This document shows positions 1 through 5,165 of a stretch of DNA of 6,558 bases, one piece after another (the first letter of the stretch is position 1; each line of letters starts with the position of its first letter). The stretch comes from Patescibacteria group bacterium (GTDB lineage Bacteria; Patescibacteriota; UBA1384; XYA2-FULL-43-10; CAINNR01). The notes beneath the pieces are model-generated. The model was not told where the DNA came from. It worked only from the letters and a program-made list of their open reading frames with translations, and made no database searches. The position numbers and the translations under genes are program-made. The DNA lies in NCBI GenBank assembly GCA_028690755.1, contig JAQVAO010000035.1:1-6558 (forward strand), read 5' to 3'.

Positions 1-617
1 AGTTTGTTCCTGGTGTCTCAATTAAGAGGGGTCCTGGCTATATTTATTTAGTTTTCTTAAACGATGTTGATGCCCGTGGCTATGAATATTTTCATGGCAA
101 GCTTCAGATAGAAGGTGCAAAGATAATCAAAGCAATAAATGGTGCTCACAGATTTTCGAGTTTGTCGCCATTTTATATTGCTGGGCCATTTGAATCTCAA
201 GGTGATAATATCGCTGATTCTACTGGTACTAATTCTCTGCAAGACGAGTTTACTGTGTACAGTGATGATCGCGACAACTATGTTGAAATTACTACCACAA
301 CCGGAAGCGGCTCTGACTCCGTATATATTTACTATGATTATGCTGATGAAGTTATCGGCGGTTGCCAGTGTCAGGATGGGATAGACAACGATGGTGACGG
401 TTTTGTTGATTACCCAAATGACCCCGGATGTACTTCGCCTGAGGATAATGATGAAGTAAACACAATAGCCGCTCTTATTAGCCAGCCGGCTAAGATTTTG
501 CCATCGCTTGTATCTTCAGGCCCTGGATTTTGGATTTTAATCGTTACTGTGCTTGTTATCTCGGGGATAGTGATATTTATAATCATTAAATCTGATAAAA
601 ATAAACCGATTAACTAA
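1..617 (+). CDS. Secreted, C-terminally anchored surface protein with a DGIDNDGDG motif (5' partial)
   Basis: The reading frame is open from base 3 to the TAA at 615-617 (204 residues visible); the start lies upstream of the window. The first ~120 residues are rich in Gly, Asp, Thr and Tyr and look like a beta-rich extracellular domain that I do not recognise. Residues ~121-152 carry CQC followed by DGIDNDGDGFVDYPNDPGC and an acidic tail. This Cys-framed, Asp-rich loop is common in secreted proteins of candidate phyla and resembles calcium-binding (dockerin/thrombospondin-3-like) loops; calcium binding is inferred. After a Pro/Ser linker come SSGP (513-524), about 22 hydrophobic residues (WILIVTVLVISGIVIFIII) and the basic tail KSDKNKPIN, the layout of a cell-wall sorting signal without a canonical LPXTG. 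The sortase gene begins 19 bases after the stop. Function is unknown beyond surface display; the membrane anchor is clear. Confidence 0.8.
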   Translation, partial: FVPGVSIKRGPGYIYLVFLNDVDARGYEYFHGKLQIEGAKIIKAINGAHRFSSLSPFYIAGPFESQGDNIADSTGTNSLQDEFTVYSDDRDNYVEITTTTGSGSDSVYIYYDYADEVIGGCQCQDGIDNDGDGFVDYPNDPGCTSPEDNDEVNTIAALISQPAKILPSLVSSGPGFWILIVTVLVISGIVIFIIIKSDKNKPIN

Positions 618-636
618 AAAAATATTCAAGATTGTT

Positions 637-1242
637 GTGGCTCTGGCGATAGTTTTTGTCGCAGTGTATTTAGCGCTCAATGCTACTGCCACCTATAATT
701 CAGCTAAGTTTTCTTTGGATCCGGAGTCATTTAAAGATGACAAATTACTCGAGGCAGTAAACGCTTTAGCGGACCAACATAATTTTAGTTCGAAACAAGG
801 TCAAGCTATCGAGAACAATTTACCGGATAACTGGCTATCGTATCCAAGGTTTGGGATAAAAGCGCCAATATTTTGGGATGTGCCAACAGAAATTGCGACG
901 GAAAAATTAGCCGATGGTCTTGTCCATATTGCAAATACCTCTAAACCAGGCGATGGAGGTGAGAGTTTGATTTCCGGCCATAGTTCATATTATTGGTGGC
1001 AAGAGGGTGGTTATAAAGAAGTTTTTGTTAATTTACCAAAAGCAGAGATCGGCGACAAAATTATAATCCGACGAGGCAGTACTTATATTTATTCAGTTAT
1101 CAACAAATATCATGTTGGTGGTGGGGAAGGACTTACTTTTGAAACTGCTGGCGAAGAGAAATTAAGCCTTATGACTTGCGTTCCACTCGGGACCAATCTT
1201 CGTCGCTTGATAGTTGAGGCCAAATTAGAAAGTAGTTTTTAG
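637..1242 (+). CDS. Sortase family transpeptidase
   Basis: Sortases are membrane-bound cysteine transpeptidases that cut a C-terminal sorting motif and join the surface protein to the envelope. From the GTG at 637 the product is 201 residues. It has an N-terminal hydrophobic segment (residues 2-14), then an extracytoplasmic domain with WLSYPRFGIKAPIFW (like the IPKIGVxAPI start of the sortase barrel), His115 in SLISGHSSYYWW, Cys181 in LSLMTCVPLG, and Arg190 nine residues after the Cys. Together these give the expected His/Cys/Arg triad in a TLxTC-type context. The exact sortase class cannot be decided by eye. The start is doubtful. GTG 637 has no clear Shine-Dalgarno site and leaves a very short, uncharged membrane anchor. 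The frame is open back to base 583, and upstream residues KKIFKIVV would complete a typical Lys-flanked anchor, but no ATG, GTG or TTG precedes them in frame. The genes on both sides encode likely substrates. Confidence 0.88.
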   Translation: MALAIVFVAVYLALNATATYNSAKFSLDPESFKDDKLLEAVNALADQHNFSSKQGQAIENNLPDNWLSYPRFGIKAPIFWDVPTEIATEKLADGLVHIANTSKPGDGGESLISGHSSYYWWQEGGYKEVFVNLPKAEIGDKIIIRRGSTYIYSVINKYHVGGGEGLTFETAGEEKLSLMTCVPLGTNLRRLIVEAKLESSF

Positions 1243-1284
1243 CCCAGTCGGTTTTCATTTCGATGGAATTTATTATGCTGTGTA

Positions 1285-1302
1285 TACCAAAATAAATTGG
1301 TA
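1285..1302. repeat. Inverted repeat TACCAA-N6-TTGGTA
   Basis: A perfect 6-bp inverted repeat with a 6-base AT spacer lies in the 87-bp gap between the sortase and the ELWxxDGT gene, 27 bases before the latter's start codon. It could be an operator or a weak hairpin. The U-tract needed for a terminator is missing (the right arm is followed by AAAA). The function is unknown. Confidence 0.35.
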
Positions 1303-1329
1303 AAAATATGTTTGATTTTAGGATAAATA

Positions 1330-3012
1330 ATGGCTAAGAATAAAACAAAATTTAATCTAAGGAATTTTTTATTGGGAGGATTTGTTCTTTCGCTGTTTCT
1401 TTGTTTTTTCCCTAATTTTGTAAAATCAGCCGACCCAGAACCGGTATTAGTTAAAGAAATTAATAATGATTATTATCCATATTTGGAATACTTGAAAATT
1501 ATGGGGAATTCTTTATATTTCTTCTATATCGCAAATACTGAAAATTGGAATCCAATTTATGAGCTTTGGAAATCTGATGGTACCACAGGGAGCACAACGT
1601 TAGTTAAAGATATAAATGAGAGAAGAGATCACACTGACAACGTTGATTATCTTGTAGCCATTGGCGGCACTCTTTTTTTTGGTGCCAATGATGGCACAAA
1701 TGGTAAGGAGCTTTGGAAATCTGATGGCACTCCAGCTGGAACTGTTATGATTAAGGATATCAACCCCGGTGTGAATGGTAGCAGCCCGGAGCAGTCAGTG
1801 GATTTTAATGGAGTTCTATATTTTTCGGCCAATGATGGTGTTAATGGAGAGGAGCTTTGGAAATCTGATGGTACTGCTGATGGGACAGCAATGATTAAAG
1901 ACATCAATCCCGGTGCTGCTTATAGTAGTCCGACAAACCTCTATATTATAGGTAGCACGCTATATTTTGAAGCAGATAATGGTGTGAATGGAAGAGAGCT
2001 GTGGAAATCTGATGGTACTGAGGGGGGAACAAAAATAATTAAAGATATTAATCCTGCTGGCAATGCTCAGACATCAACTTTTGTTGAGTATAATTCAACA
2101 TTGTTTTTTGGTGCCAACGATGGTATCCATGGCAAAGAGCTGTGGAAATCTGATGGTACTGCCGATGGTACGGTTATAGTAAGGGACATAAATTCAGGTG
2201 GTGGGAATGGCAATCCTGCTCATCCTGTAGTTTATAATAACGAGCTTTATTTTTCAGCAGCTGATGAAGTGGATAATAATGAACTTTGGAAAACAGATGG
2301 TACGGAGGCAAAAACTGTAAAAGTCAAAGAAATTAATCCGTCTGGGACCAGCAATCCGACTGGTCCGATGGCTGAATTTAGCGGCGAACTGTATTTCTCG
2401 GCTTGTGATCAAGGAACGATTTATTGTTATGATAATGAACTTTGGAAAACAGATGGTACTGAAGCGGGGACAGTCCAGGTGGCAGAAATAAGATCTGACT
2501 GTGAGACATATCCTTGCAGTAATTTTGGTAGCATCCCTGCATATTTAACAGTTTCAGGAGATTCTTTATATTTTTCGGCTAATGATGGTACTCATGGCAA
2601 GGAGCTGTGGAAAACCGATGGCACCGAGGTGGGAACTGAAATAGTAAAAGATGTAAATTTATGTGGAGATTTTCAGCCGAATAATCTCACTGATTTCAAT
2701 AACAGTTTGTATTTTTTTGCCATAGATAATTGTGAAGATGATAGAACTCAGCTTTGGACATTGACAACGGGGACTGATGATGATGTTGATGATAGTAGTG
2801 AAAACGATTTAGATGATGCGGGAGAAGGTGATTTAAACGTTGAAGAAGAAGACAATAATCCTGTATCTGACTATACTTCAGTGGAAGTTGTTTTAACGTC
2901 TATCCCTTCTGGACCCAAAATTGAAATTTTAATGTTTTTTTCTTTATCCTTGTTATTTTTTTTGATATTAAATAATATTAGATTTTTTAAAAACAGAAAT
3001 CCAAAAGTGTAG
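1330..3012 (+). CDS. Secreted ELWxxDGT-repeat protein with C-terminal sorting-type anchor
   Basis: This 560-residue protein starts at ATG 1330, preceded by AGGAT (1320-1324). Residues 1-34 form a signal peptide: the basic stretch MAKNKTKFNLRN, a hydrophobic core, and a likely cut after VKSA. Residues ~40-480 hold nine units of ~48 residues of the type VKDINP...LYFSANDG.NG.ELWKSDGT. ELW[KT]xDGT begins at residues 78, 127, 175, 223, 270, 318, 370 and 425, with a decayed copy QLWTLTTGT at 474. The name ELWxxDGT repeat is established; a beta-propeller fold is my inference from the ~48-residue period and the strand-like LYF/ELW segments. An acidic linker (residues 483-510) precedes SIPSGPK (524-530), a ~20-residue hydrophobic segment and the basic tail RFFKNRNPKV. 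This matches the end of the first gene in the window and fits anchoring by the adjacent sortase. The ligand or role (adhesion, cell contact) is unknown. Confidence 0.88.
   Translation: MAKNKTKFNLRNFLLGGFVLSLFLCFFPNFVKSADPEPVLVKEINNDYYPYLEYLKIMGNSLYFFYIANTENWNPIYELWKSDGTTGSTTLVKDINERRDHTDNVDYLVAIGGTLFFGANDGTNGKELWKSDGTPAGTVMIKDINPGVNGSSPEQSVDFNGVLYFSANDGVNGEELWKSDGTADGTAMIKDINPGAAYSSPTNLYIIGSTLYFEADNGVNGRELWKSDGTEGGTKIIKDINPAGNAQTSTFVEYNSTLFFGANDGIHGKELWKSDGTADGTVIVRDINSGGGNGNPAHPVVYNNELYFSAADEVDNNELWKTDGTEAKTVKVKEINPSGTSNPTGPMAEFSGELYFSACDQGTIYCYDNELWKTDGTEAGTVQVAEIRSDCETYPCSNFGSIPAYLTVSGDSLYFSANDGTHGKELWKTDGTEVGTEIVKDVNLCGDFQPNNLTDFNNSLYFFAIDNCEDDRTQLWTLTTGTDDDVDDSSENDLDDAGEGDLNVEEEDNNPVSDYTSVEVVLTSIPSGPKIEILMFFSLSLLFFLILNNIRFFKNRNPKV
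1447..2769 (+). repeat. Nine ~144-bp coding repeats (ELWxxDGT units)
   Basis: The repeat is visible at DNA level. The block GAGCTTTGGAAATCTGATGG and close variants recur at the end of units 1-5. Units 6-8 carry GAACTTTGGAAAACAGATGG or similar, encoding KTDG instead of KSDG. Unit spacing is 47-49 codons except for units 7 and 8 (52 and 55 codons), which hold short Cys-containing insertions. The ninth unit is degenerate. Confidence 0.85.
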
Positions 3013-3069
3013 GGTGCAAAAACAGTTTTTAAATAATCATTTACCTTAATGTAATAACTGGTTTCCAGA

Positions 3070-3098
3070 TTGACTGATTATCTAATTTGTAGTACAAT
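3070..3098 (+). promoter_or_regulatory. Promoter of tRNA-Ala (TTGACT-N17-TACAAT)
   Basis: The -35 hexamer TTGACT (3070-3075) and the -10 hexamer TACAAT (3093-3098) each differ from the sigma70 consensus by one base and are separated by exactly 17 bases. The predicted transcription start is around 3105, only a few bases before the mature tRNA 5' end, so a very short leader would be removed by RNase P. Confidence 0.8.
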
Positions 3099-3108
3099 TT
3101 ATCGAGTT

Positions 3109-3184
3109 GGGCCTGTAGCTTAGCTGGTAGAGCGCCACATTTGCACTGTGGAGGTCGCTGGTTCGAATCCAGTCAGGTCCACCA
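3109..3184 (+). tRNA. tRNA-Ala, anticodon TGC
   Basis: This 76-base sequence folds as a full cloverleaf. The acceptor stem GGGCCTG pairs with CAGGTCC and contains a G3:U70 wobble pair, the known alanine identity element. The anticodon stem CCACA/TGTGG frames the loop TTTGCAC with anticodon TGC, which reads GCA and other GCN codons. The T arm has TTCGAAT in the loop, and the discriminator A is followed by an encoded CCA (3182-3184). The gene has its own promoter and terminator. In many bacteria this isoacceptor sits in the 16S-23S spacer; here it lies ~1.4 kb upstream of the 23S gene with a protein gene in between. Confidence 0.97.
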
Positions 3185-3251: not shown

Positions 3252-4043
3252 ATGGAATTAAAAAATAAAAATGTAATTGTAACCGGTGCCGGAAGTGGGA
3301 TTGGGAGAGAGTTGGTTTTGGCTTTGCTAAAAAAAGACGCCAAAGTTATTGCTGCTGATTTGCGCAGGGAATCATTAGATATATTGAAAAAAGAAGTTGG
3401 GGAAAATAAAAACTTAATAACCCAATCATTAGATATTTCTGATAAAGCTGCTGTCGAGAAATTAGCTGAAGAGAGAAATGAAATTGATGTTCTTATTAAT
3501 AATGCCGGTATTATCCAGCCTTTTAAAAAAGTAAATGATTTAGAATATGTTGAGATTGAAAAAGTAATGAGTGTAAACTTTTTTGGTACACTTTTTATGA
3601 CAAAGGCGTTTTTGCCCAATTTATTAAAGCGACCAGAGGCTTATATCGCCAATGTTTCTTCGATGGGCGGATTTTTGCCGGTACCGGGTCAAAGTATTTA
3701 TGGTGCTTCCAAAGCGGCGGTCAAGCTATTTACCGAAGGACTCTACGCTGAATTACTTGATACCAATGTTGGTGTATCGGTCGTTTTCCCCGGTGCGACG
3801 GCAACAAATATCACCAAGAATTCAGAAGTCCAAGCGCCAAAAGTTAGCGACGAACAAATGAAAAAATTTAAGGCTTTGCCGGCCGACGAAGCTGCCCGTT
3901 TGATTATTGAAGGTATCGAAAACAACAAACCACAGATATTCTTAGGATCCGATTGTAAGAGTATGAATGTTTTCTATCGTTTGAGTCCTCTTCGAGCGAT
4001 TAAGTTAATCTCTAATCAGATGAAATCACTTCTGCCAAAATAA
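3252..4043 (+). CDS. Short-chain dehydrogenase/reductase (SDR), classical type
   Basis: This is a 263-residue NAD(P)-dependent oxidoreductase of the usual classical-SDR length (~250). The Rossmann motif TGAGSGIG is at residues 11-18. An Asp at the end of the second strand (AAD36LRR) favours NAD, although the nearby Arg residues leave NADP possible. D61 in LDISD contacts adenine, and NNAG is at 83-86. The catalytic tetrad is complete: N109, S137 in NVSSMGG, Y150 and K154 in YGASK, followed by the PG motif (180-181). Residues ~185-263 form the variable substrate region and end in a basic, hydrophobic C-terminus that might associate with membrane. The start ATG is supported by GGAGG at 3243-3247, 4 bases upstream, which is short spacing but a strong match. 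The gene stands alone between a tRNA and the 23S promoter, so context gives no clue to the substrate. No terminator is visible before the rRNA promoter, which begins 20 bases after the stop. Confidence 0.92.
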   Translation: MELKNKNVIVTGAGSGIGRELVLALLKKDAKVIAADLRRESLDILKKEVGENKNLITQSLDISDKAAVEKLAEERNEIDVLINNAGIIQPFKKVNDLEYVEIEKVMSVNFFGTLFMTKAFLPNLLKRPEAYIANVSSMGGFLPVPGQSIYGASKAAVKLFTEGLYAELLDTNVGVSVVFPGATATNITKNSEVQAPKVSDEQMKKFKALPADEAARLIIEGIENNKPQIFLGSDCKSMNVFYRLSPLRAIKLISNQMKSLLPK

Positions 4044-4554: not shown

Positions 4555-4830
4555 AAAAGTTAATTCAATACAAGGGTATATGGTGGATGCCTAGGGAAAA
4601 GTGGCCGAAGAAGGACGTAGTAGGTTGCGATAAGCCTCGGGGAGTTGCCAAACAAACTTTGATCCGAGGATCTCCGAATTGAGAAATCTTTCTGGTTTTG
4701 AAGACCAGAAATCCTCCGCCGTGAGGCGGATGGAAGGGTACCTGCTGAACTGAAACATCTTAGTAAGCAGAGGAAAATAAATCGTAAGAGATTCCCTTAG
4801 TAGTGGCGAGCGAACAGGGAAAAGCCCAAA

Positions 4831-4976
4831 CCGCTTGTGCGAAGCACAAGCAAGTTAAAAGTTATAAAGTCCATAAAGTTAAAAGTATCAGGAATTAACT
4901 AAAATAGTTTAAATCCGAAAACTTTCGACTTTCGACTTTCGACTTTATTGACTTGTTTGCGCTTTGCGCAAACGGG
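4831..4976 (+). other. Expanded helix-25 region of 23S rRNA
   Basis: Between the conserved flanks GCCCAAACC and GGGGTTGTGGGACC, where Bacillus-type 23S has a short hairpin, there are ~145 bases. They begin with hairpin CTTGTGC-GAA-GCACAAG (4834-4850) and end with GTTTGCGC-TTT-GCGCAAAC (4955-4973). Between these lies an AT-rich stretch whose AAAGTTAAAAGTTATAAAGT part can pair loosely with the downstream ACTTTCG repeats. The region would form a branched surface arm. Confidence 0.65.
4921..4946 (+). repeat. Heptanucleotide tandem repeat (ACTTTCG)x3.7 within 23S rRNA
   Basis: Three perfect copies of ACTTTCG followed by a partial copy ACTTT lie in the expanded helix-25 arm. The unit length (7) and perfect identity suggest recent slippage growth. 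The arm is a known variable region of 23S, so it can tolerate such changes. Confidence 0.85.
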
Positions 4977-5165
4977 GTTGTGGGACCCATATAATCTTTT
5001 GTGAAAGGATAGGAGAACGACCCTGGAAAGGGCGACCATAGAACGTGAAAGTCGTGTATCTTAAATCCTAGTAGCTGAAGAGTTGGTGTTCCCGAGTACC
5101 ACGAGACACGTGAAACCTTGTGGGAATCTGGGGTGATCACACTCCAAGGCTAAATACCACTTTTC

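Follow-up and report, generated by a model that had tools for sequence, protein, structure and literature searches.

A sortase clade paired with a putative Ser-Gly sorting signal in small-genome Patescibacteria

A sortase gene in a small-genome patescibacterium lies between two genes for predicted secreted proteins whose C termini share a Ser-Gly-Pro (SGP) motif, a hydrophobic segment and a basic end; judged from these sequences, the enzyme is likely to be a dedicated transpeptidase that cuts between Ser and Gly and joins both proteins to the cell wall. The window analysed here is a whole contig of 6,558 nucleotides (JAQVAO010000035.1, or C75) from a 568-kb, 95-contig, 82%-complete genome (GCA_028690755.1, or G000), the host of which is of the same class as the candidate-phylum Berkelbacteria. 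Sortase signals are known largely from Firmicutes and Actinobacteria. A wider proposal, which we consider evenly poised, is that the enzyme belongs to a clade with a natural signal that lacks both Pro at P3 and Thr at P1, and that this clade cuts Ser-Gly in [VI]xSG(P), operates without cross-talk beside the TG-cutting sortases of its small-genome cell and displays propellers and glycosidases. The window tails escape the LPXTG_anchor model; if the proposal is true, [VI]xSG(P) together with the sortase clade could serve to find surface proteins of the lineage, and the enzyme would provide a natural Ser-Gly ligase that acts orthogonally to LPXTG sortases.

SGP tails in two genomes

Gene 1 (positions 3–617), the sortase gene (637–1242) and gene 3 (1330–3012) follow one another on the forward strand. 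The C-terminal part of gene 1, which runs off the contig at its 5′ end, closes with ...KILPSLVSSGP-GFWILIVTVLVISGIVIFIII-KSDKNKPIN, the SSGP of the signal L-V-S-S-G-P being at 513–524; gene 3 closes with ...VVLTSIPSGP-KIEILMFFSLSLLFFLILNNI-RFFKNRNPKV, with IPSGP at 2902–2916 and the hydrophobic segment and basic end at 2917–3009. Reading the codons confirmed both tails at the positions given in a preliminary description of this DNA, which had also likened them to cell-wall sorting signals; the architecture of such a signal (short motif, hydrophobic segment, basic end) is present, and there is no LPXTG. Neither tail is among the own-genome matches of the LPXTG anchor model TIGR01167 at E ≤ 5, and an LPATG tail on contig C61 of the same genome does match; the model is noisy (matches in 14/14 control genomes, 9 above the cut-off). 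From the letter make-up that precedes the 99 C-terminal transmembrane (TM) tails in our loci, SGP near the TM start is expected in 0.0024 of tails. It was observed in both window neighbours (2/2) and in the sole tail-bearing same-strand neighbour of the sortase in an independent locus, L012.

This locus was the best of 38 obtained in one scan of a genome collection (84,980 species) with the sortase query A1, and comes from Candidatus Berkelbacteria bacterium isolate 4_1_July_SF_Bin64, a metagenome-assembled genome. Its sortase core is 100% identical to that of genome G048, which is of the same class as the window genome and has a sortase 40% identical to, and in the same clade as, the window enzyme. 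Directly upstream is a different protein of 326 amino acids with a Pro-rich stalk, ending SGIKSGP-SFIVLIVLVATIGGFIVYRIAKS (GIKSGP, a TM segment and a basic end). The pairing of sortase and SGP tail thus recurs in an independent genome, and both sortases lie in one clade. A second G048 protein, a 1,162-codon open frame on another, unlinked contig, ends AGIKSG-ISTIYIAAVAGILAVLTLITIIVWKKRKGAKNKHNETPAI (GIKSG-I, a TM segment and KKRK), with Ile where the sortase-linked protein has Pro. It was found through an LPXTG_anchor family search (E = 0.163, below the cut-off) and matches GH123_N (33.2 bits; cut-off 27) and, below the cut-off, CBM_4_9 (25.1 bits; cut-off 25.9). GIKSG is common to these two otherwise different proteins.

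The motif first proposed, [IV]xSGP, stands as a non-LPXTG SG signal that recurs in an independent genome, but its proline is not obligatory, as the GIKSG-I of the second G048 protein shows, and [VI]xSG(P) is the better description. The putative signal would have Ser for Thr at P1, V or I for Pro at P3 and, commonly, Pro after Gly. As relatives can also have V or I before a TG core (LVSTG, LIATG), it is Ser for Thr that marks the clade. Pro after Gly also occurs in TGP tails (ASTGPEE in L136 and AETGPIL in L066, both from G047, and AATGPED in L135, from G049). What is new is the combination of these features, linked to one sortase clade.

Both tail-bearing proteins are predicted sortase substrates. 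The earlier identification of gene 3 as an ELWxxDGT propeller is upheld by TIGR04534 (E = 6.3e-143; 8 ELWxxDGT stretches), by a model that shows repeated beta blades at about residues 35–480 (mean pLDDT 72), and by Foldseek, in which the best matches in PDB include propellers (sortilin Vps10p and designed 8-bladed proteins; TM-scores of about 0.4–0.6). The protein also has an N-terminal signal-like segment, recognized by eye, and an acidic linker that is modelled with very low confidence. Among the best 120 of 7,975 scored ELWxxDGT homologues, some of which may be fragments, 118 lack any strongly hydrophobic window within the final 45 residues, and the two exceptions are the query and P0160, with an identical tail; none of the 120 therefore keeps an anchor without SGP. 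Because only these two have a hydrophobic C terminus, a common propeller type appears to be fitted here with a sorting tail. Gene 1 encodes an acidic, double-disulfide-like repeat that matches NF033662 below the cut-off (21.7 bits; cut-off 41). Its homologues match mainly this repeat, and none of those listed keeps the SGP tail; they do not bear on whether an anchor is retained without SGP, because the matches are mostly to the repeat.

The window sortase, its clade and their neighbours

By sequence and model, the window enzyme (P0001) is a true PF04203 sortase, with predicted transpeptidase activity. It matches the family at 67.4 bits (curated cut-off 26.6; E = 1.2e-18), adopts the sortase fold (model of mean pLDDT 85; PDB matches) and has the catalytic His (H122; 979–981), Cys (C188; 1177–1179) and Arg (R197; 1204–1206). 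Its best structural match is the class E sortase 5go5. Against the NCBIfam sortase classes it lies under every curated cut-off reported: class C 48.9 bits (cut-off 160), the best; class D 32.8 (165); class E 33.0 (160); class F 14.8 (166); GN 15.4 (158.25); SrtD-LPxTATN 37.2 (140); and the general TIGR01076 36.6 (39.35). Models of classes A and B were absent from the matches at E ≤ 5. A hydrophobic N-terminal helix is present, and neither sequence nor model has a C-terminal TM segment. The frame is open from 583 to 1242, and its first ATG, GTG or TTG is the GTG at 637, which falls within the membrane helix; several relatives start with Met some residues earlier. The gene may in fact begin upstream of 637, at an unusual or rare codon that overlaps the end of gene 1.

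A tree built from 135 columns of 172 sortase cores, drawn with a midpoint root and with a bootstrap that had not fully settled, contains a 25-row clade (support 100/99) with the window enzyme in its 12-row half and the L012 enzyme in its 13-row half. The catalytic His is kept in 25/25 clade rows and 146/146 others, the Cys in 25/25 and in 145/145 others with a letter there, and the Arg in 25/25 and 144/145 others, the remaining one being X; one spurious long-branch row (a second frame of L037) is omitted from these others. The tree does not include L022, L039, P0018, P0053, P0093, P0100 and P0118, owing to duplicate cores or a failed core pattern. Residues enriched in the clade, by alignment, are Y76, L/F79, I81, V89 and L102, with no substrate pocket tied to them. 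The clade lies within a 29-row group, to which the sortases beside AETG and ADTG tails are sister; those that adjoin LVSTG and LIATG branch off further out. By parsimony over two loci, the SG signal would date to the base of the clade.

At E ≤ 1e-45, A1 found matches in 13 of the 55 class genomes examined, and only those of the window genome and G048 match the clade best; the same two are the only clade members among the 4 matches at E ≤ 1e-50 in 379 genomes of the phylum, and the only best matches to the clade among the 71 loci L005–L075. The draws of phylum genomes appear to overlap heavily, with near-equal tallies, and were not counted as independent. On viral contigs, 77 stretches fitting the pattern include no relative.

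Neighbours were counted by a rule requiring a position on the same strand as a GHSS-bearing sortase open reading frame (ORF), a gap between −80 and 150 bases, a length of 100 amino acids or more and a closed 3′ end, together with a 17-residue window above 1.8 (Kyte–Doolittle) in the last 45 residues, followed by at most 20 residues with at least one K or R. Over all loci (59 distinct sortase ORFs) this yielded 14 tails. Beside clade sortases SGP is present in 3/3 (the window twice, and L012); beside other sortases it is present in 0/11, where TG accounts for nine (LPATG, LIATG, LVSTG twice, IKTG, LTG, AETG twice and ADTG), LPSG for one (L053) and neither for one (L045). Some of the nine TG tails may not be true sorting signals; that of L019 looks like part of a small polytopic protein. 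By simple arithmetic, 3/3 versus 0/11 has a chance of 1 in 364 assuming independent loci, and the loci are not wholly independent. The LPSG tail belongs to a polytopic branched-chain amino acid permease (PF02653) and was rejected as a sorting signal, yet kept among the 11. Tails too far from their sortase for the rule (L072, AETG, gap 735; L135, ATGP; L136, STGP) were not counted.

Several loci have TG tails of interest in themselves. A pair recurring in the class consists of a sortase and a small protein of 104–128 amino acids with a DxAETG or DNADTG tail (L134, 2296–3393; L066; L070; L072), which suggests a second lineage-specific sorting signal. In L135 (G049; 1877–2895) and L136 (G047; 2119–3116), a secreted-looking protein ends in AATGPED or ASTGPEE, a TM segment and a basic tail. 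Immediately after it comes a small protein that has a type I dockerin (PF00404; 53.2 and 42.7 bits) and, at its N terminus, a hydrophobic segment; this is possibly a cohesin–dockerin-like surface pair with a TGP sorting signal, and no cohesin match was seen in it. Beside the sortase of L052 (G007; 272–1417), a 381-amino-acid protein with Ig-like matches below the cut-off ends RQLTG-TM-RPKETK, possibly another TG signal without Leu-Pro.

A tail profile (A2) was built from three SGP tails, two of them from the window itself. In the window genome it found the two training tails and one weak, TM-only match (E = 0.0078). Leave-one-out trials were poor: built from two tails, it missed that of gene 3, and it ranked that of L012 only level with a TM-only tail. 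We therefore rejected it as a genome-wide detector. It returned no SGP tail beyond the training tails in the 379 phylum genomes (E ≤ 0.001), and none in the 30 of 37 class matches examined save one in a spurious L101 ORF, antisense to an ORF of 218 amino acids. Because held-out tails are poorly recovered, these absences are soft evidence, and so is the accompanying result that no genome without the sortase was seen to keep the motif; such retention is what the preliminary description had regarded as contrary to its proposal.

Mechanism, rival explanations and known systems

From the well-known sortase mechanism we infer a cleavage site, an acceptor and a surface location. Both proteins would be exported by Sec (the signal-like N terminus of gene 3 was seen by eye; that of gene 1 is off the contig), and the hydrophobic segment and basic end would hold the precursor in the membrane. 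The membrane-bound sortase would attack SG on the C-terminal side of its Ser, the position corresponding to the Thr of TG after which canonical sortases attack, and the amine of a peptidoglycan precursor would resolve the acyl-enzyme. Since G048 carries a further sortase, of the AETG group, with a 104-amino-acid protein ending DDAETG immediately after it (L134), and the window genome has another sortase, on C61, adjoining the LPATG tail, each cell would run two sortase–signal pairs; Ser at P1 may keep the substrates of the clade apart from the TG substrates of other sortases in the cell. The LPATG-linked sortase (L003; G000:C61, 1303–1833) is cut by the contig end, and the start of C30 (L004, G000) may hold its other end.

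The tails could be plain C-terminal membrane anchors in which SGP caps the helix, with the adjoining sortase acting on other proteins. S, G and P are frequent at helix starts, an SGP precedes the last TM segment of a polytopic Nramp protein in L012, and tail cleavage is itself a prediction. However, with SGP so rarely expected, its occurrence in 3/3 clade neighbours against 0/11 others, together with the GIKSG shared by two different G048 proteins, makes this explanation unlikely. It is also conceivable that the SGP proteins are substrates of the murA-adjacent sortase on C69 or of the LPATG-linked one on C61, and that the window enzyme is a pilin-type or unrelated ligase, given that the window genome has further sortases and that the best NCBIfam match is to class C, albeit below the cut-off. 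We regard this as improbable: C69-type enzymes occur in G001–G003, genomes that gave no SGP tail with the weak tail profile; C61 adjoins LPATG; and the window enzyme lacks the C-terminal TM segment usual in class C. Processing of the tail in the manner of PEF/PEP-CTERM tails, by a system of exosortase-like or rhomboid type, would accord with PEF-CTERM matches of the gene 1 tail (8.7 and 10 bits; cut-off 23, thus below it), but seems very improbable, as PF09721 is found in 0/3 genomes (G000, 82% complete; G048; G049; rhomboid-type enzymes were not searched) and the sortase directly adjoins the tail gene in both genomes.

Several points count against a dedicated sortase for Ser-Gly signals. Genomic context comes from two genomes only, the 23 other clade rows being database proteins without such context here, and four tails in all connect sortase and signal, one of them with no Pro; for the unlinked GIKSG protein, a different sortase could be responsible. 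The neighbour rule was written after a similar look at the loci and treats related loci as independent, one non-clade sortase (L053) has an S-G neighbour, albeit the polytopic permease, and the tail profile is weak.

Comparisons with published systems draw on excerpts of the cited articles. The LAXTG signals of Streptomyces SrtE1, of class E, are tied to a conserved S3 Tyr (Tyr229) (PMC5148588); class E sortases share with the window enzyme the fold, the His, Cys and Arg and a dedicated signal without P3 Pro, whereas their signal keeps TG and the window enzyme scores far below their cut-off. An Ile of P0001 aligns with a Tyr of 5go6 (HI versus HY), and equating that Tyr with Tyr229 is an assumption; this position was not used as a signal predictor, the LPATG-linked sortase of the same genome having HY. 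Closer at hand, the sortases of L015, L017, L037, L066, L070 and L113, from same-class or Berkelbacteria records (L017 from G030, same class), also adjoin a tail gene on the same strand, with LVSTG, LIATG or AETG/ADTG tails. LVSTG is one residue from the LVSSG of gene 1, but these signals have a TG core and the enzymes lie outside the 25-row clade. AbpA and SrtB of oral streptococci likewise represent a sortase encoded with its own substrate bearing a distinct signal; there the signal is LPKTS with a short tail (AVK) and no hydrophobic domain, shown experimentally to be cut between T and S (PMC4974636), whereas the window tails have SGP and a hydrophobic segment. Ser at P1 has a described precedent in Enterococcus faecium PrpA, the LPKSG of which is described as a predicted LPxTG-type anchor (PMC4682149); it keeps Leu-Pro, and the excerpts link no sortase clade to it. 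Sortases of fam000526 are reported in more than half of bacteria of the candidate phyla radiation (PMC6744442), with no sorting signal given in the excerpts. The titles, abstract openings and passages of the literature surveyed do not mention a [VI]xSG(P) signal.

Other features of the window

Downstream of gene 3, on the same strand as the sortase, are a tRNA-Ala (3109–3184), a short-chain dehydrogenase (3252–4043; PF00106, 171.3 bits) and, after it, a 23S rRNA, of which the first 2.0 kb are present. Inside the 23S rRNA, an A/T-rich stretch at 4830–4980 with inverted AAAGT/ACTTT repeats, noted by eye, is possibly an insertion in a variable helix.
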